A stretch of 9,040 nucleotides of DNA from Candidatus Latescibacterota bacterium (GTDB lineage: Bacteria > JAAXHH01 > JABIQT01): positions 1 to 9,040 of the forward strand of contig JABIQT010000989.1 of NCBI GenBank assembly GCA_018667995.1. Direction: 5' to 3'. Shown here piece after piece: positions 81 to 9,040 of this stretch. Each line of letters begins with the position of its first letter. Positions within the stretch are counted from its first letter, which is position 1. A program made the translations under genes and the position numbers. The notes under the pieces were generated by a model. It saw nothing but the letters and a program-made list of their open reading frames with translations. It searched no databases and had not been told where the DNA came from.

Positions 81-1616
81 TCATGCCCCGGCGATACGCG
101 GCATGCGGGTGGATTCACGCTGGATTTCAGCTTGGAGAAAACGGTGCATCATACCGGCTTTGATCTGGGCGAAGGAAGGATCATTCCATCGGTTGTTTAC
201 CTCGCCCGGGTCCTCGCTAAGATCGAAGAGCTCACCGTATTCCTCATTGCGATAAACGGTCATTTTGTAGCGGTCTTCTACCAACGTCCGCAGATGCACT
301 GTAGTGGGATTGTGGCGATTCTCTACGAGGACATGTTCACGCGCCGATGCTTTCTGCCCACGCCATACATCGAGCTGGTTTACGCCCTGCATCAGGCCTG
401 GAGGTGTTATGCCCGCCGCCGTGAGAAATGTAGAGGGATAGTCAATCAGTGCTTGCAGGGCATCGGATGTGGTCCCGGCTGGTATCTGACCGGGGTAACG
501 CGCAATCATGGGCAGTCGGAGGAGATCTTCGTAGTGAAAGGCACCCTTGGCAATCAGTCCGTGTTGTCCGATGAAATGCCCATGATCAGTGGTGAAGACC
601 ACCAGCGTATTGTCCGCGATTCCCAGACTGTCCAGACGGTCAAGGATGCGTCCGATGGCTTTGTCCATCAGACTGATCATGCCGTAGTAACAGGCTATGG
701 AGTTCCGCAGTTCGACATCGGAATGCAGATGGGAATTAAAGCCGTGAAGCCCCTTGCCGCCCTCCTCGTCGTACATGGAGAAATCAGGGTGCGCTTCTCT
801 GGTCTTAGCAAATTGCGGAGGCATCTGATCAAATTCACCTTCCGTAAAGACCCCGGGAACCATCTCATCCGAATCGTACATGTGTGCCCAGGGATCCGGA
901 ACTACATACGGAGGATGCGGATCGAAGAAACTCGCCCAGGTGAAGAATGGTTTATCATTCTGTACCGACTTCTCGATATTAGCTACTGTGCGATCGGCAA
1001 TCCAATGCGAATGATGAAGGTGCTCGGGCAGATCCCATGTCATCATCCCCCTCTCGTACTCGGGCCCGTTGTATTTGTCGTCCTTCGAGGGGGGATATTG
1101 CTGAAAGTAGTCTTTCCAGTCCGACAGGCCGTGCTCTTCGAGCCAGATAGCGTAGTGTTGGCCGGCATGGGATTCGTGCGCATGCATTCGGGCTGTTTCT
1201 ACATGATTGAATCCGTACCAGGGCCCGTGGAATGACCGCCAGAAATCCAGGTCCCTTAGAATCGGCTGGCATTCGATAGACTCGCTACCTGGCTGCGAGG
1301 CCAAGGGCTGAAAGTGTGCCTTGCCGATTAGAGTGGTGTCATAGCCATGGTCCTGGAAAGTATCACCCACCGTCGGTACGTCCTCAGGGAGTTTGCATCC
1401 GATAGTCCAACAGTGGTGTGAGGACGGGTAGAGGCCTGTAATCAGTGTGGAGCGCGAGGGCGAACAGACTGGATTGTTACAATAGGCACGATCGAATCGC
1501 ATACCTTCGCCAGCAAGTCTGTCCAATGACGGTGTGCTGATTCGCGGATTGGTGACGCCCAGTGTGTTATAGTGTTGTTGATCGCTGGTTATGAGCAGAA
1601 TGTTGGGTTGGGACAC
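81..1616 (-). CDS. Type I (formylglycine) sulfatase
   Basis: Hydrolyses a sulfate ester, or possibly a sulfamate; the substrate cannot be read from the sequence. Numbering from the GTG start gives 511 residues, a normal length for the S1 sulfatase family. The N-terminus SQPNILLITSDQQ carries the metal-binding Asp12. CSPSR (51-55) is the formylglycine signature, so Cys51 would need maturation by a sulfatase-modifying enzyme. GKAHF (99-103) gives Lys99 and His101, DPHPPY (232-237) gives His234, and TTDHG (342-346) gives the metal ligands Asp344 and His345. ELFDLSEDPGEVNN (462-475) is the usual C-terminal sulfatase element. There is no signal peptide, so the protein is probably cytoplasmic and acts on an imported small substrate. 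The start is chosen because AGGAG sits 6 nt before GTG at 1616. An ATG at 1622 directly abuts AGGAG, and a TTG at 1658 has no ribosome binding site. It lies last in the minus-strand cluster, after a 534-nt gap. The family is certain; the substrate is unknown. Confidence 0.95.
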   Translation of the reverse strand: MSQPNILLITSDQQHYNTLGVTNPRISTPSLDRLAGEGMRFDRAYCNNPVCSPSRSTLITGLYPSSHHCWTIGCKLPEDVPTVGDTFQDHGYDTTLIGKAHFQPLASQPGSESIECQPILRDLDFWRSFHGPWYGFNHVETARMHAHESHAGQHYAIWLEEHGLSDWKDYFQQYPPSKDDKYNGPEYERGMMTWDLPEHLHHSHWIADRTVANIEKSVQNDKPFFTWASFFDPHPPYVVPDPWAHMYDSDEMVPGVFTEGEFDQMPPQFAKTREAHPDFSMYDEEGGKGLHGFNSHLHSDVELRNSIACYYGMISLMDKAIGRILDRLDSLGIADNTLVVFTTDHGHFIGQHGLIAKGAFHYEDLLRLPMIARYPGQIPAGTTSDALQALIDYPSTFLTAAGITPPGLMQGVNQLDVWRGQKASAREHVLVENRHNPTTVHLRTLVEDRYKMTVYRNEEYGELFDLSEDPGEVNNRWNDPSFAQIKAGMMHRFLQAEIQRESTRMPRIAGA

Positions 1617-1622
1617 ACCCAT

Positions 1623-1627
1623 CTCCT
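1623..1627 (-). promoter_or_regulatory. Ribosome binding site deciding the sulfatase start
   Basis: On the minus strand AGGAG lies immediately next to an in-frame ATG (1620-1622) and 6 nt before an in-frame GTG (1614-1616). The first spacing is too short for normal initiation and the second is ideal, so GTG is the favoured start and gives the typical sulfatase N-terminus MSQPNILL. The two choices differ by two residues. Confidence 0.6.
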
Positions 1628-2067
1628 TCCGGATGACGTCTGTTTGTTTCAGCTGCAAAGGCGAGACAATAGGGGCGTAAAGTGAAGGGATGAGTGGTAG
1701 AACGCAAGGATTTCATGCCGAGCGAGATAGAGCATCTGCTGGTAGCCAAAGGGTAAAACGGATTGGACAGGAGCCGCACATGGCCACCGGGAGATGATTC
1801 TGATATGCCGGAATCCAGTTGCTCAATAGAATGGTTGGCTCCGCCGGTTCATTATCCTGAATCTGGAGCGGCAGGGGGAGACCGCTGCATACTCATCTCA
1901 GAATGTGTGCGCAATGGTCACATCTTGCGAGACCAAACTACGATATGTGCCTTCCTGAACGTACTAATTCGTTTATGAATGCACACGATCATCCGGTCGA
2001 GTGGTTGCGGTAGAGCTGCAGGGTGGCGGTGTCTTCGTGCCTAAGGGTAGAGGAGGCATGGATTCTC

Positions 2068-2150: not shown

Positions 2151-3050
2151 CTATGCAGTATACAGATCTGCTATGTCCGCGAGAATGGCGTCCAATTCCT
2201 CGTGATCAAACATATCGAGCGGCTTCGTATCGGAGACACGAACGTAGGCTGATCGGATGATACCCCGTCGCTTCAGCACCTCTTTATAGAGGTAGATATG
2301 ATGCAGGGACTCGAAATTGATGAGGGGCAAGAGTCGGTTGAAAATCTCCCGTGCTCTTTTCCGGTCTCCTGATTCATAGGCATCCCAGACGGCCACATGG
2401 ACATCGGTCACCTCGCAAGCCGGCATCGTACCTGAGGCACCGCGGTTGAGCTCATCGAGCATATGCTTCCCCGCCGCTCCTCCGAAAATGCCCTCGATAT
2501 CCTGTCCACAGGCCTCAATGTCTGCAGATACGGAATGCGTGAAGGGGGGAATCTCTTCCTTGATGTACAGGACATTTGGTATGTTGTTGGCCAGTTCCGC
2601 GAGCAGTGCCGGGGACATGGGTAAACCGATAGGATGATTCTGGATAAAGACCGGAAGATCAGTCGCTGCACAGAGGGATTCGTAGTAGTTCCGTACGCCG
2701 TCAAGATGTGCTTTCTTCACGTATGGAGGCATAGCGATAAGGGCGTCAGCCCCGTGATCGAGGGCGTGGCGCGCGAACAGAACCGCTACTTCCGCACTGA
2801 CGCCTGTGGCGCTCGCCACGTAAGGAAGTCTACCGTCCAGGGCACCGGAAATTGTTTCCACGACCTGCATCCGTTCCTGATCCGACAGGGCGCTGAACTC
2901 ACCGGCGTTTACCGGTCCGACGATACCGTGGGCGCCCGCCACAACACAGAATTCGACGACCTCCTTCAAACCTTCGAGATCAAGCGATCCATCGTCATTG
3001 AAAGGGGTGACTGGTATGGTGAAAACACCTCTGTAGGGCGGATCCGACAT
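2151..3050 (-). CDS. DHDPS/NAL-family class I lyase with altered active site
   Basis: A 299-residue TIM-barrel lyase/aldolase/hydratase of the dihydrodipicolinate synthase/N-acetylneuraminate lyase family. Members form a Schiff base between a lysine and pyruvate or a 2-keto acid. The start FTIPVTPFNDDGSLD (10-24) is the family signature, and IKEE (163-166) places the Schiff-base Lys164. Several DapA residues are missing. The GTTGE loop reads PVNAGE (46-51), so the Thr-Thr pair is absent. The tyrosine of the YNVPGRT motif is replaced by Gln137 in IQNHPIG (136-142), and the following arginine is also gone. It is therefore unlikely to make dihydrodipicolinate; a sugar-acid or hydroxy-keto-acid lyase or dehydratase is more likely. 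The ATG at 3050 has AAGGA upstream; an in-frame TTG at 3068 has no such site. The stop falls at 2151. A 211-nt gap separates it from the hydrolase gene upstream, so it may have its own promoter. Confidence 0.9.
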   Translation of the reverse strand: MSDPPYRGVFTIPVTPFNDDGSLDLEGLKEVVEFCVVAGAHGIVGPVNAGEFSALSDQERMQVVETISGALDGRLPYVASATGVSAEVAVLFARHALDHGADALIAMPPYVKKAHLDGVRNYYESLCAATDLPVFIQNHPIGLPMSPALLAELANNIPNVLYIKEEIPPFTHSVSADIEACGQDIEGIFGGAAGKHMLDELNRGASGTMPACEVTDVHVAVWDAYESGDRKRAREIFNRLLPLINFESLHHIYLYKEVLKRRGIIRSAYVRVSDTKPLDMFDHEELDAILADIADLYTA

Positions 3051-3235
3051 GGTCTTTCCTTTTCTCAACTCTCAATGCTGGATGCATGGGCATGTACTGT
3101 AGAGGCGTAGCAGAACGTAGCACTATGCCCCTCTTAAGGTCTGATTTACGGGGTGCTCGATTCATAGATCGCGCCGCAATTGTACTGTTATAGGTGGCCC
3201 AGCCCTGTTCGGTTTACTTACGGAGATAGGGGCCT

Positions 3236-3261: not shown

Positions 3262-3933
3262 TCAAGTTGCGATGCTTTTGGTCCACGAGGCGGTTTTCAA
3301 CGCCAGGTCGACCAGCACCTCTTCGCGTGTCTTTCCGGACCGTTTGAGAACCTTGAATCCGTGATCGGCGGTGTCCACAACGAAGAGATCCGCCTGGTCA
3401 CCCAGGTCATTGCAAACGAGCTCAATGTTGCCTATGTCCGCCAACTTGTCTTTGGTGCCCTGCAGGAATAGCATCGGAACGGTGACGTCGGAAAAATGCT
3501 CGGCACGTTCTGCCGGTCCCTTGCCACCACTCAACGGAAATGCTGCGAATACGATGCCTTGAATAGGCAGAGGTGCTTCGGCGAAGGCCAGCGAGGTCAT
3601 ACGGCCGCTCATGGAGTGCCCACCAGCAAAAAGAGGCAGGTCCGGCTGTTCGCTCGCCGCCGTTTCGATGGCGCGACGGACAGTCGCCAGCAACACTTTG
3701 CGTCCATCGAGGCCACCTCCCCCCTTATCAGAATAGGGATACTGATAGCGGAAAGTGGCTACACCCACATCGACGAGTGCATTGCTCAGTCCCGTTACGA
3801 GGGCGTGGCGCATGTTGCTGCCGGAACCGTGGCCTAAGACAAGTAGGGAGTGAGCGTCATCCGGAATGTCCATAATCGCGGATACGTCGCCTTTTTCATC
3901 TGTGGCAAGGAACTTCAACTCTCGTGTAGACAT
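3262..3933 (-). CDS. Small alpha/beta hydrolase (Tex30/KANL3-like)
   Basis: A 223-residue alpha/beta-fold hydrolase with no signal peptide or extra domain, so a compact cytoplasmic enzyme. LGHGSGSNM (33-41) is the oxyanion-hole loop typical of the Tex30/KANL3-like and dienelactone-hydrolase-like group. GHSMSG (105-110) is the nucleophile elbow with Ser107. FLQGTKD (156-162) carries the probable acid Asp162, and TADHGF (188-193) carries the catalytic His191. All three triad members are present, so it should be active, probably on an ester or thioester; the substrate is unknown. The ATG at 3933 is preceded by GAGGA with a spacing of about 7 nt. It follows the exported-protein gene after 64 nt with no clear terminator between, so it may share that transcript. 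The fold and triad are secure; the subfamily name is an informed guess. Confidence 0.9.
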   Translation of the reverse strand: MSTRELKFLATDEKGDVSAIMDIPDDAHSLLVLGHGSGSNMRHALVTGLSNALVDVGVATFRYQYPYSDKGGGGLDGRKVLLATVRRAIETAASEQPDLPLFAGGHSMSGRMTSLAFAEAPLPIQGIVFAAFPLSGGKGPAERAEHFSDVTVPMLFLQGTKDKLADIGNIELVCNDLGDQADLFVVDTADHGFKVLKRSGKTREEVLVDLALKTASWTKSIAT

Positions 3934-3997: not shown

Positions 3998-4864
3998 CTA
4001 TTGGCTCTCGCCGGAGAGTGCCGCGCTACCGCTTATGGGGAATATGGCGTCGAAATCCACTTGTATCTCGACTTGTTCGTTGTCGCTATTCCAGTAACGA
4101 ATACTCTCGTCCACGCCTTTGACAAAACCATTAAAATCTGCTGGAGCATCCACGCGCCAGATGGTTTTGTCCAGCATTCCAAATCGGTCCATACCGCGTA
4201 TACGGTAAATATCCATGGTTTCGCCGGTCAGTGCGACAAAGAACTTGTGCTGTGAGAGTCCGATCCGGCCGGAAATAATGGCCGCGGTATTCGAGAACTG
4301 AAAGGTGCTGCAACTGCCCAAAGATTCATCCAGGTATTCGGCTTGGTGCTTCATGTCAATGTATCCGCCCTTGTCACCAGCTGATGCTGTATGGTAAAAC
4401 TTGGGATACTCTACGACCTGCATGCCGAATCGAATGAAGCTTCGGACCACGGCTTTTTTGTCACCTCGGGAGGCCGTGTCAAATCGAGTGTCTGCGGCGT
4501 GTCCCGTCTTGTGGGAATCGCCCTGCTTTCCAGAAGCTGCCACCAAAGGTCCCGGGGCCAGCGCCTCCTTAATCCGGATCACAGAATCCCGGGCTACAAC
4601 CTGATAGATCAGGACCGGTGCCGTCTGATGAAAATGAGGGGCTGACCAGAAAAAGACCTCATTGGTTCCGTCCTGGTCTATGTCCACGACCTCATATCCC
4701 CTGGGACGGAGCTTCATTCTGAAGTCACCGTACTGTTCGGGGGTGTCCTTCATAATAATATATCTCATGACCGCCTGCACATCGGGCGGGAAGTCTCCGA
4801 GAAGCTGGGCCTGAACAGGGGATATCAGGGCGCAAAGTATGCATGTCAGCACCAGGTTTTTCAT
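3998..4864 (-). CDS. Exported protein of unknown function
   Basis: I do not recognise this 288-residue protein. The N-terminus MKNLVLTCILCALISPVQA has one lysine, a hydrophobic core and a probable signal peptidase I site after Ala19 (VQA-Q), so it should reach the periplasm or outside. No lipobox is evident, and there is no later membrane segment. DIDQDGTNE (61-69) resembles the Asp-rich calcium loop of FG-GAP/VCBS-type repeats and is followed by beta-rich sequence (EVFFW, PVLIYQVV). Residues 105-135 are polar and rich in Gly, Ser, Lys and Asp, probably a flexible linker. Only one such Asp loop is visible, so a full propeller is unlikely. Its ATG overlaps the stop of the PhyH gene as ATGA (4861-4864), which implies translational coupling. 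GGTGGA in the end of that gene could serve as its ribosome binding site. The role is unknown; it may sense, bind or process the pathway's substrate outside the cytoplasm. Confidence 0.85.
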   Translation of the reverse strand: MKNLVLTCILCALISPVQAQLLGDFPPDVQAVMRYIIMKDTPEQYGDFRMKLRPRGYEVVDIDQDGTNEVFFWSAPHFHQTAPVLIYQVVARDSVIRIKEALAPGPLVAASGKQGDSHKTGHAADTRFDTASRGDKKAVVRSFIRFGMQVVEYPKFYHTASAGDKGGYIDMKHQAEYLDESLGSCSTFQFSNTAAIISGRIGLSQHKFFVALTGETMDIYRIRGMDRFGMLDKTIWRVDAPADFNGFVKGVDESIRYWNSDNEQVEIQVDFDAIFPISGSAALSGESQ

Positions 4865-5715
4865 ACGTTATCCACCAATGGACGGGGGTTATTAGCCCAA
4901 TGGCCGGTGGGGTCGGATCCAGCCACCCAAACACCCTCTGCATTCCATCCCAGTTGTGCTCGAACCGATGATGCACAATATCGTAGGGTGAGACCGCATC
5001 GACGCCGGGCTGAAGAATTTGCCTCTGACCCGTGCAACAAGAGGTCGCTGTGCAATGAGATCTGTCCTGCCTCCAATTCTATGTCCACCGGATCGCCGTA
5101 TCCCGTCACATCGTCGACCGTCTGATTCAGCACATTTTGTTCTGCATCGTCACTAGCCCGATACCCAATGTGGCCCTGGGTGTGTGAGCCCGAGATAAAC
5201 CGCATACAGGCATTCTCAGTATCGGTATCGTCGATGGCAAGCCAAGCTGTCACCGTTTTCGACGGTGACAGAGGCCAATAGCTGGCGTCCTGATGCCAGG
5301 CAACCGTTTTGGTATCATGTGGCAGCTTGCAGAAAAAGTGAGATCCCCAGCCGACAACGTCTTCTCCGATGATGTCGTTTATATATGCGACAATTCTCCG
5401 GTCATTCATGATGTCATGGACCAGACCCGATTTCAGATGGGCAGATATGACGGAGTAGCTACTTTGACCCTTCGCCAGGGCTGCCGCGATCAGAGTGTCC
5501 ACGCCCTTTCGAATCTCGGAGCTTTCTGCATCAGAGAAAATACTGATCCCTTTGACATAGCCGCGGAGGTTATACTGCTCCGCCTGCTCGGGAGTTAGTG
5601 CCGCTGGCCCCAGGGCATCAGCGGGATGAAACTGAAGATCCCGCTCCATGGCCCGAAGTTCTTCCGGCGTCGGCATTCGCTTATATCGGCTGTCTTCTAT
5701 GGAAGTTTGACTCAT
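4861..5715 (-). CDS. Phytanoyl-CoA dioxygenase (PhyH) family oxygenase
   Basis: A 284-residue Fe(II)/2-oxoglutarate-dependent oxygenase of the PhyH family, which hydroxylates a substrate while converting 2-oxoglutarate and O2 to succinate and CO2. WHQDASYW (140-147) supplies the iron ligands His141 and Asp143. LHSDLLLHGSEANSS (221-235) supplies the distal iron ligand His228, and Arg239, eleven residues later, is placed to bind 2-oxoglutarate as in human PhyH. GSH (176-178) within FISGSHTQGH matches a common family element. The iron and co-substrate residues are intact, so it should be active. The substrate is not predictable: family members act on acyl-CoAs, ectoine, phosphonates, halogenated compounds and natural products. 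No signal peptide is present, so it is cytoplasmic. The ATG at 5715 has GAGGA 5 nt upstream. It begins 17 nt after the propeller gene and overlaps the exported-protein gene by 4 nt, so the three are almost certainly cotranscribed. Confidence 0.93.
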   Translation of the reverse strand: MSQTSIEDSRYKRMPTPEELRAMERDLQFHPADALGPAALTPEQAEQYNLRGYVKGISIFSDAESSEIRKGVDTLIAAALAKGQSSYSVISAHLKSGLVHDIMNDRRIVAYINDIIGEDVVGWGSHFFCKLPHDTKTVAWHQDASYWPLSPSKTVTAWLAIDDTDTENACMRFISGSHTQGHIGYRASDDAEQNVLNQTVDDVTGYGDPVDIELEAGQISLHSDLLLHGSEANSSARRRCGLTLRYCASSVRAQLGWNAEGVWVAGSDPTGHWANNPRPLVDNV

Positions 5716-5732
5716 TATCGTCCTCGTTGCGC

Positions 5733-7445
5733 CTATCGAAAATGTGGCGTGTCCTTCAAGTGATATTCGAGTAAATGTCCCCTCGCCCCTAGGTAAAATA
5801 CACCCGGTTCGCCCTCTACGATCTGGTATAAATCGGGGATAGGTGGTTGATCCAGGTAGTGAATACGGTCTGTTGATACGTCCAGTTTGAACACATCAGT
5901 GCGGGTACATCCGTAGATGTCACCGTCGCTCCCCGGGGTAAGATGTATAATACCATAGGTTTCCGGAACACCCATCAGTGGAGATCCGTTGGAACGCAGC
6001 GACCAGGTTTGAACAACCTGTCGCTGTTCCTGATCGAATGCGAATAGATGACTGTTTGAGGTCGTGCCATAAACGAAGCCGCTCTTGCCGCTGACCGCCA
6101 GTGAGGTCACGGCTACGGCCTCACCATCAGGGACACATTCGAAGATGCGTTGCTGGCGGGCCGGATCGAAAATGAAAAGCAGCCCCTGCTCCGTAGTCTC
6201 CACACAGCCTCGCCCTCCTGAAATGCTGGTACCGCCGTACACGAACTGTTCGTCAGCCGCCACGCATTGGACGCTCTGCTCGTAATCTCTGTGCACGGAG
6301 AGAGACTCGGTCGCGGTATCGAAGACGGCTAGGCCGCCTCCGGGCATTCCGTAATTTGCACGACAGGCAATGTAGATAGAGTCGTCTGGCCCAACCGCGT
6401 ACTCGAATGGCCGGTTCATATCGTGGCCGATTACGCCGTAGGATCTCGGATTGGCATCCTCTGCTTCCCCGTCCACATCTCGTCGTGGATTCCATGTTTT
6501 TGATGGGTCAAACACACCCCAGTAGGCACCCGTGTAGCTGCCCATAAACAACTTGTCCCGGTGTGCGATCACATCGTAAACTTCTCCTCCGCCCCAACCT
6601 ACCCGCCCAAGATCGCGAAGGTCGCGCTCTGACGGATCGTAGGCGAAAATATGCATGGATATGATCGTAGCTCCATAGATCTTGCCGTCGGGGCCTTTGT
6701 TCAGACCACAGATGTCCGTGGCTACACTTGGCTGGTAGTCAAATGTGCATACTTCCCCGCCCACCGTGTAGGTACCACCGTATATGTCCGCGGAAATCTC
6801 ATGTTTGGCCTGACCGGTAGGAACGGGTGGATCAGGTGCTTTCTCGAGAAGGTGGGTCTTGCCGGATATGGGGTCGAAGGATACCGTTTGCCCGGGGCGT
6901 TCCCTACTTATGAGGCAGATTATTTCTCCTGATGTGGCCTGGAACTGGACGCTGCACCAGATCTGCTGTTTGGGCAGGATCGGATCAGGTGCCAGACACC
7001 CGTGATCATGCCAGGTCTCATCCTTAGGATCGAAGCTGACCAGATGCCCAAATGGGTGTGTGCCCAGGTATATGCGTCCTTCCCGGCCCCAAACTGCATT
7101 GACAAATCGAGTACCGCTGCTGGCGGGAAAGCCGTGATAGCGCAGGTCCCTGGTTTCCGGATTCCATGATTGCAGGATATTTCCTGGTTGATTGAGACCA
7201 TGGAAACTGTAAATCCAGATGACCCCAGAATCGGGTTGCACGAGGACGCTGAACTCCCGGGCGCCAATGACGTGCCGTTCGACTACTACACCCGAGGCCA
7301 CGTCAACTGCGAATAGTACGGATCCCTCTTGGCCAAATTCACCGCCCCAGATCAGGTCTGTATTTCGAACCGGATCGTGTGAGATCCATCCCCCACCCAT
7401 CCATCCACCGACAACCGGACGACCGAGGTCGTAATAGACCCCCAT
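5733..7445 (-). CDS. Cytoplasmic beta-propeller-like repeat protein
   Basis: From the ATG at 7445 this encodes 570 residues made of repeated blade-like units. Each unit has the form G-x-IY-G followed some 10 to 20 residues later by a hydrophobic-(F/Y)-D-P turn. Clear copies are RIYLGTHPFGHLVSFDP (124-140), KIYGATIISMHIFAYDP (255-271), LFMGSYTGAYWGVFDP (299-314), the units at 357-376 and 402-427, FVYGTTSNSHLFAFD (457-471), DIYGCTRTDVFKLD (509-522) and VFYLGARGHLLEYH (549-562). This argues for one large propeller or two smaller ones. There is no signal peptide, so it is probably cytoplasmic. No catalytic motif is recognisable; it may be a binding scaffold, an epimerase/lyase-like propeller or a regulator. 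The start is fixed by AGGAG 7 nt upstream. The reading frame stays open for 52 more codons but without an equally good site. It is the first gene of the minus-strand operon and is divergent from aceE. The repeat fold is likely; the function is unknown. Confidence 0.85.
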   Translation of the reverse strand: MGVYYDLGRPVVGGWMGGGWISHDPVRNTDLIWGGEFGQEGSVLFAVDVASGVVVERHVIGAREFSVLVQPDSGVIWIYSFHGLNQPGNILQSWNPETRDLRYHGFPASSGTRFVNAVWGREGRIYLGTHPFGHLVSFDPKDETWHDHGCLAPDPILPKQQIWCSVQFQATSGEIICLISRERPGQTVSFDPISGKTHLLEKAPDPPVPTGQAKHEISADIYGGTYTVGGEVCTFDYQPSVATDICGLNKGPDGKIYGATIISMHIFAYDPSERDLRDLGRVGWGGGEVYDVIAHRDKLFMGSYTGAYWGVFDPSKTWNPRRDVDGEAEDANPRSYGVIGHDMNRPFEYAVGPDDSIYIACRANYGMPGGGLAVFDTATESLSVHRDYEQSVQCVAADEQFVYGGTSISGGRGCVETTEQGLLFIFDPARQQRIFECVPDGEAVAVTSLAVSGKSGFVYGTTSNSHLFAFDQEQRQVVQTWSLRSNGSPLMGVPETYGIIHLTPGSDGDIYGCTRTDVFKLDVSTDRIHYLDQPPIPDLYQIVEGEPGVFYLGARGHLLEYHLKDTPHFR

Positions 7446-7649: not shown

Positions 7650-9040
7650 ATGAGTGAGCAACCTATCCAAGACGAATCCGGTTTTGATCCAGATGACATA
7701 GAGATCAAGGAGTGGCTCGAGTCGCTCGATTATGTGCTGGCCAATAACGGACCTGAACGCGTTCGTACCATAATCGACGAGCTTCAGCAACGGGCTCGGC
7801 GGAGTGGTGTCCGGCTTCCATTCGCTGCGAATACCCCCTATGTGAATACGATACTTCCCGAGCAGCAACCAGCCTATCCGGGTAGTCACGAGCTAGAGCA
7901 GCGTATCAGGAACATCCTTCGCTGGAATGCCATGGCCATGGTGGTCCGGGCAAACCAACGAGATAAAACCATAGGCGGCCATATTGCCACCTACGCTTCG
8001 GTAGCAAACCTCTATGAGGTAGCATTTAACCACTTTTTTCGGGGCAAAGGTGACGGGTATGACGGAGATCAAATTTACTTCCAGGCACATACCGCCCCGG
8101 GTGTTTATTCGCGTGCTTACCTGGAAGGACGCCTTTCGGAGAAACAGCTTGAGAATTTTCGCCACGAACTGGGCGAGGGAGGTGGCCTGTCATCCTATCC
8201 CCATCCGTGGCTGATGCCTGACTTCTGGGAGTTTCCCACGGCCTCCATGGGGTTGAGCGCAATCATGGCCATCTATCAGGCCAGGTTCAATCGGTATCTC
8301 GAAGACAGAGGACTGAAGTCTCACAACAATAGTCGGGTATGGGCCTATCTAGGTGATGGTGAGACGGATGAGCCGGAGGCACTCGGAGCAATCACCCTTG
8401 CTGCCAGAGAGAAACTCGACAATCTGACATTTGTCGTGAACTGCAATTTGCAGAGACTGGACGGCCCGGTACGCGGGAACGGCAAGATCATTCAGGAACT
8501 GGAAGCCGCATTCCAGGGAGCGGGCTGGAACGTCATCAAGGTGATCTGGGGAAGTGGGTGGGATCCATTGCTGGCCCGGGATGATGAGGGTCTGCTTACC
8601 CGCCGAATGGGCGAGATCGTGGACGGTCAATACCAGAAATACACGGTTTCTGATGGAAAATATCAGCGTGACCATTTCTTCGGTGTGCATCCCAAACTTG
8701 TGGAAATGTCCAAATTGCTGACCGACGAGAACGTGCGTACCATCAATCGGGGCGGTCACGATGTGGATAAGATCTATGCGGCCTACGCGTCTGCTGTTGA
8801 GCACCAGGGCGCTCCAACGGTAATCCTCGCTAAGACGATCAAAGGGTACGGAATGGGGGAGTGGGGCGAAGGCAGAAATACGGCCCATGGGCAGAAGTTG
8901 CTGGACCAGGAAGCACTGCAGCACATGCGTACCCGATTCGGCATACCTCTTACAGACGAAGCCCTTGTAGACGCGCCGTTCTACAGGCCTCCAGAGGATA
9001 GCCCTGAGATCCAATATATTAGAGATCGGCGTGCGGCCCT
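7650..9040 (+). CDS. aceE: Pyruvate dehydrogenase E1 component, homodimeric type (partial)
   Basis: Thiamine-diphosphate E1 subunit of the pyruvate dehydrogenase complex. It decarboxylates pyruvate and passes the acetyl group to the lipoyl E2 in the cytoplasm, feeding acetyl-CoA to the TCA cycle. The window holds the first 463 codons, roughly half of the about 887 residues of the E. coli enzyme; the frame is open to the right edge. Matches run from the start: EWLESLDYVL (21-30), RWNAMAMVVRAN (91-102), GGHIATYAS (109-117), and APGVYSRAYLEGRL (149-162). The thiamine-diphosphate motif begins at GDGETDEP (235-242) and ends at NCNLQRLDGP (264-273). KGYGMG (398-403) begins the mobile active-site loop, and His413 aligns with E. 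coli His407. All these residues are kept, so the enzyme should be functional. The start ATG has AAGAGG 7 nt upstream. It is divergent from the minus-strand cluster; aceF and lpd might be expected beyond the right edge. Confidence 0.97.
   Translation, partial: MSEQPIQDESGFDPDDIEIKEWLESLDYVLANNGPERVRTIIDELQQRARRSGVRLPFAANTPYVNTILPEQQPAYPGSHELEQRIRNILRWNAMAMVVRANQRDKTIGGHIATYASVANLYEVAFNHFFRGKGDGYDGDQIYFQAHTAPGVYSRAYLEGRLSEKQLENFRHELGEGGGLSSYPHPWLMPDFWEFPTASMGLSAIMAIYQARFNRYLEDRGLKSHNNSRVWAYLGDGETDEPEALGAITLAAREKLDNLTFVVNCNLQRLDGPVRGNGKIIQELEAAFQGAGWNVIKVIWGSGWDPLLARDDEGLLTRRMGEIVDGQYQKYTVSDGKYQRDHFFGVHPKLVEMSKLLTDENVRTINRGGHDVDKIYAAYASAVEHQGAPTVILAKTIKGYGMGEWGEGRNTAHGQKLLDQEALQHMRTRFGIPLTDEALVDAPFYRPPEDSPEIQYIRDRRAA

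Follow-up and report, generated by a model that had tools for sequence, protein, structure and literature searches.

Three neighbouring genes in a Candidatus Latescibacterota genome, for a propeller protein, a PhyH-family oxygenase and an exported protein, lie so close together that they raise the question of whether their products form one dedicated system. An earlier note on this DNA suggested that they could. The window analysed here is the whole stretch of 9,040 nucleotides (contig C674) from a genome, G000, of 6.06 Mb in 1165 contigs that is 85% complete. The comparison set comprised 288 genomes, and the phylum of the window is represented by 16 genomes, its own and 15 relatives. The features of the window are given in Table 1.

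Table 1. Genes and signals in the window, from its end inward
Feature	Position	Strand	Basis
aceE, homodimeric-type pyruvate dehydrogenase E1, truncated where the window ends	7650..9038	+	TIGR00759
Propeller gene, 570 aa	5733..7445	-	Uncharacterised family; ORF, homologue alignment, model, fold search
17-nt gap with Shine-Dalgarno-like GAGGA ahead of PhyH	5716..5732	-	
PhyH-family Fe(II)/2-oxoglutarate oxygenase, 284 aa	4861..5715	-	PF05721; HxD...H triad and Arg intact
Exported protein, apparent orphan, 288 aa	3998..4864	-	ORF; one D-x-D-x-D-G loop
Alpha/beta hydrolase	3262..3933	-	PF20408
DHDPS-family aldolase/dehydratase	2151..3053	-	PF00701
Sulfatase	81..1658	-	PF00884 and SGSH_C

The genes are read in the order propeller, PhyH, exported protein, alpha/beta hydrolase. 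The propeller stop is 17 nt from the PhyH ATG, the PhyH stop and the start of the exported gene overlap as ATGA, and 64 nt precede the hydrolase. A second Shine-Dalgarno-like stretch, GGTGGA, lies ahead of the exported gene, and the propeller start at 7445 is backed by the aligned N-terminus of its homologues, MG(V/I)(F/Y)(F/Y)DLGR. Thus, the open reading frames, the gap and the overlap of the three coupled genes are all as first described. Because of the gap and the overlap, co-transcription of these genes is likely, in agreement with the suggestion that their products are made together. In a scan for promoters and terminators, the sites were in no clear excess over shuffled sequences. The tight run contains four genes rather than three, as the alpha/beta hydrolase gene had been omitted; it is probably in the same transcription unit as the exported gene. 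Upstream of the propeller gene, aceE is divergent. The DHDPS-family gene, whose best NCBIfam match, below the cut-off, is 5-dehydro-4-deoxyglucarate dehydratase, and the sulfatase gene lie further downstream of the hydrolase. The sulfatase is intact and fits a polysaccharide-degrading lifestyle.

The middle gene had been described as an intact Fe(II)/2-oxoglutarate oxygenase, and this is borne out. Its product matches PF05721 (E 9e-27, 95.2 bits against a cut-off of 22), and the iron triad H141-x-D143 ... H228 and the distal arginine for 2-oxoglutarate (R237-239) are invariant across three orthologues. The chlorinating members of the family (TIGR01762: SyrB2, CytC3) are recognised by replacement of the triad carboxylate with Ala or Gly, together with a score over the NCBIfam cut-off. 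Asp143 is present in the window enzyme and the score is 71 bits against a cut-off of 226, and a halogenase was rejected. The match to human PHYHD1 (2opw) covers 59 residues (E 8e-8) and is weaker than that to 6zyk (E 1e-20).

The third gene of the run encodes a protein with an apparent Sec signal, MKNLVLTCILCALISPVQA, and the single Asp-rich loop noticed before, which we take to resemble the calcium loops of FG-GAP/VCBS proteins. The glycine of this loop is lost in the homologue from G013, one of the 15 relatives. No Pfam or NCBIfam family scores over its cut-off, and among the 288 genomes there are no relatives beyond G013 at a meaningful score. Its AlphaFold model is too poor to use (pLDDT 34). 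Judged by its sequence, the protein is an orphan, and the earlier statement that it has no recognisable function stands.

In the original reading, the propeller, PhyH and exported protein would act on one substrate in two compartments as a dedicated hydroxylation system. Besides the 17-nt gap and the ATGA overlap, this is supported by G013 (CAJXCW010000304, an uncultured-bacterium MAG), where a divergent aceE is followed by propeller, PhyH and exported genes with 67%, 64% and 31% identity to those of the window, and by G011 (VGJU01000027), where aceE is again divergent and propeller and PhyH are adjacent. However, G013 is the only one of the 15 relatives with the full order, and its exported gene (L023 331-1200) is interrupted by an in-frame TAA upstream of the conserved part. 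G011 has a methyltransferase gene after PhyH and the exported gene is absent. In G001 the propeller gene overlaps that of an HpcH/GarL-like aldolase and a close PhyH orthologue is absent. The genes downstream of PhyH differ from relative to relative, and about half of the close propeller homologues lack an adjacent PhyH.

The neighbours of PhyH are also exchanged on its other side. In four genomes of genus g3 (G002, G007, G010 and G012), a PhyH orthologue with 65-67% identity lies beside divergent aceE, and an unrelated gene of 285-303 aa is found between the two, in the place that the propeller gene takes in other genomes. The same gene adjoins PhyH in G006 and G015, as judged by match positions. 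The g3 genomes have no close propeller, just a paralogue with 30-35% identity elsewhere in the genome. The replacement protein has no Pfam match, yet each of the 16 genomes from the phylum contains relatives of it (loci include L069 8731-9588, L070 9485-10351 and L072 8235-9146). The aceE gene stays beside the PhyH locus in three genera besides that of the window, and the aceE-propeller-PhyH arrangement is present in G000, G013 and G011, which represent three genera of two families. Since the propeller occupies this site in some genomes and an unrelated gene does so in g3, it is aceE and PhyH that are conserved as a pair, and the propeller can be exchanged. PhyH is therefore the anchored member beside divergent aceE, and the genes on either side change. 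In Latescibacterota-like genomes (G059 onward), PhyH homologues with 57-61% identity lie on other contigs with no aceE or propeller nearby.

Because neighbours are swapped at the aceE-PhyH site, and because both the full set and the exported family (two of 288 genomes, G000 and G013) are rare, we reject the dedicated three-part system. It is already largely refuted by this rarity of co-occurrence, which the earlier note had named as an outcome that would speak against it, and we regard it as very improbable. The impression in the earlier note that no named system has this composition arises because the three genes are a local arrangement and not a system. We tentatively prefer to regard the three genes as a lineage-specific catabolic operon, though we would not yet call this probable.

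The propeller is a widespread protein. It shares 55-68% identity with 16 homologues (an alignment of 17 sequences) from several candidate phyla, namely Latescibacterota, 'Handelsmanbacteria', Gemmatimonadetes-labelled MAGs, two Caldilineales genomes and one Abditibacteriales genome. No Pfam or NCBIfam family scores over its cut-off, and neither the protein nor its profile found a meaningful sequence match in the PDB. The AlphaFold2 model built from the 17 sequences (pLDDT 88.1, pTM 0.87) agrees with the initial description of a repeat-propeller, and in our reading a single chain, predicted to be cytoplasmic, forms two seven-bladed propellers. In the structural comparison, virginiamycin B lyase came out first (Z 33.6; 283 residues aligned with an rmsd of 1.9 Å and 9% identity). 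YncE and WD40 propellers are nearly as close (Z about 31), and because this margin is small the fold names no function. Foldseek matches to tandem propellers of the SSU processome and axoneme were set aside as generic. Polar residues such as H130, H265, E288, D291, N344, R345, E348 and R362 are invariant over all lineages. So many invariant polar residues at this level of identity suggest a putative active or specific binding site, and would seem to exceed what a plain scaffold needs.

A second possibility is that the propeller and PhyH are a two-part pair in which the propeller is a scaffold or delivers substrate and recruits different PhyH subfamilies in each lineage. We scored 20 close propeller homologues for neighbouring PhyH genes. 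A same-strand PhyH is found within about 100 nt in six (the window, G011, G013, L041, L042 and L043), a convergent one at about 110 nt in two and one about 1 kb upstream in another, whereas 11 have no PhyH within 1.5 kb. Within 1.5 kb of the propeller there are 0.22 PhyH genes per kb, versus 0.02-0.08 further out. When each lineage is represented by a single locus, the figures are 0.15 versus 0.04-0.07, which leaves five genes against about two expected. Thus, PhyH is modestly enriched near propellers, about two to three times: the neighbour count places propellers beside PhyH above expectation in at least two lineages, but about half of the close homologues stand apart. In the propeller tree, the association in L041-L043 and the convergent one fall in separate well-supported clades, and the window group is unresolved. 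The PhyH genes of L041-L043 are 23-26% identical to that of the window and belong to different subfamilies. These three loci share a PhyH-propeller-PhyH core with gaps of 3-12 nt around the propeller. In L041 (2202-8467) the order is PhyH, amidohydrolase, xylose-isomerase-like barrel, PhyH, propeller, PhyH. Diverged paralogues were also seen: one in G001 (L028) is followed by PhyH; another, in the window's own genome (L026 1093-7653, contig C1118; 34% identity over the second half), has two PhyH genes 2.5-4 kb off and, directly downstream, a gene for a 779-aa protein that looks glycoside hydrolase-like by eye.

The tight core in L041-L043, the aceE-divergent pair in three genera, the paralogue followed by PhyH in G001 and the raised density all argue for a pair. 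However, PhyH genes are very numerous in these lineages, and because of this some adjacency to propellers is expected. There are at least 77 to more than 100 per genome in the phylum of the window (176 first-look candidates in G000), and at least 70 to more than 120 in each of the other Latescibacterota-like genomes. A study of Poribacteria (Kamke et al. 2014, PMC3909097) describes a hugely expanded, diverse PhyH set, mostly of unknown function, at more than 1.9% of genes; in genomes of this kind PhyH accounts for about 2% of genes or more. The genomes from Caldilineaceae and Abditibacteriales are PhyH-poor, with 17 PhyH genes, and no PhyH adjoins the propeller genes of Caldilineales and Abditibacteriales. 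With the excess at five against about two, we consider a functional pair possible but rather unlikely. A limited literature search found no paper on the pairing. The same abundance of PhyH, together with the swapped neighbours, the orphan third gene and the different downstream genes in each relative, would fit unrelated single-gene modules that share an operon by chance in a PhyH-rich genome. Against this, the aceE-propeller-PhyH order is kept across three genera of two families, PhyH is enriched near propellers, and sugar-acid genes recur beside them. We therefore find an absence of any functional link unlikely.

These recurrent neighbours point to a role for the propeller. The aldolase gene that overlaps it in G001 encodes a GarL-like 2-keto-3-deoxy-acid aldolase. 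A UxuA-like dehydratase lies beside the propeller in L034, with a similar gene in L037, and MR/MLE acid-sugar dehydratase-like enzymes and an SDR do so in L038 and L044. L041 combines an Amidohydro_2 protein and the xylose-isomerase-like barrel with its three PhyH genes. In Caldilineales G641, the genes near the propeller include those for AraD1/GguC and for L-threonate dehydrogenase, each of which scores above its NCBIfam cut-off, and, besides an SDR, those for a LacI regulator and an ABC sugar transporter. MR_MLE, UxuA, HpcH and LacI-type domains occur among 52 near genes and are absent from the families listed for 47 far genes, a rough comparison based on the first 25 families per scan and on genes hand-picked from open frames. 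Against the proposed role stand the many carbohydrate genes of these genomes, and no sugar-acid neighbour was recognised at L036, L039/L109 or L040.

Soluble propeller enzymes are familiar in sugar-acid pathways, where they include SMP-30/gluconolactonase and lactonases of the 6-phosphogluconolactonase type. From the neighbours and the fold we infer a lactonase- or lyase-like role for the propeller. We hypothesize that it acts as a soluble enzyme, passed from one cluster for sugar-acid catabolism to another, which would, by analogy with other cytoplasmic seven-bladed propeller enzymes, hydrolyse a sugar-acid lactone or eliminate from an acidic sugar at the predicted central pocket. PhyH may provide an oxidative side step that acts on this substrate or a related one, either hydroxylating it or O-demethylating a methylated sugar, and the exported protein is probably a dispensable accessory. 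A catabolic operon of this kind, with an anchored PhyH, a lactonase- or lyase-like propeller and an accessory exported protein, is our best explanation of the whole locus, and a tentative one. A bolder proposal is that the propeller founds a so far unrecognised enzyme family, made up of cytoplasmic double propellers that serve sugar-acid catabolism in a range of uncultured phyla, and that it works with PhyH oxygenases which remove O-methyl groups from sugars of algal or host origin; this is speculative and we hold it to be improbable.

The propeller merits follow-up, as a large and strongly conserved protein with no curated Pfam or NCBIfam family that spans several poorly cultivated phyla. Its neighbours supply a concrete and cheap panel of substrates. 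It also offers one handle on the role of the expanded PhyH sets in Poribacteria- and Latescibacterota-like genomes.

Of the characterised proteins compared, the closest in fold is virginiamycin B lyase (Vgb; PDB 2z2o, 2qc5), a seven-bladed propeller enzyme. Unlike Vgb, the window protein holds two propellers and is set in a catabolic rather than a resistance context, and the two share 9% identity. Aip1-type proteins (1nr0) also have two joined seven-bladed propellers, but 1nr0 is a eukaryotic actin-interacting WD40 protein. It aligns over 441 residues (Z 30.6, 12% identity) with an rmsd of 17 across both domains, and thus the domains of the two proteins are arranged differently. SMP-30 is a single six-bladed propeller, in contrast to the double seven-bladed window protein. 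SMP-30/gluconolactonase (PF08450) gives weak SGL matches in three of the 17 propeller homologues (best E 0.0015), and the window protein has no PF08450 match. On the oxygenase side, FJS and PHYHD1 belong, like the window enzyme, to the PhyH family; they are 2'-O-methylnucleoside demethylases that perform oxidative O-demethylation, and FJS-like sequences are reported from Candidatus Poribacteria (PMC12709175). The window PhyH aligns with PHYHD1 over about 60 residues only. The Poribacteria themselves provide a genomic parallel. Though the portion of that study used here (PMC3909097) describes no association with a propeller or aceE, the PhyH expansion that it reports is comparable to that in the phylum of the window and in Latescibacterota-like genomes.
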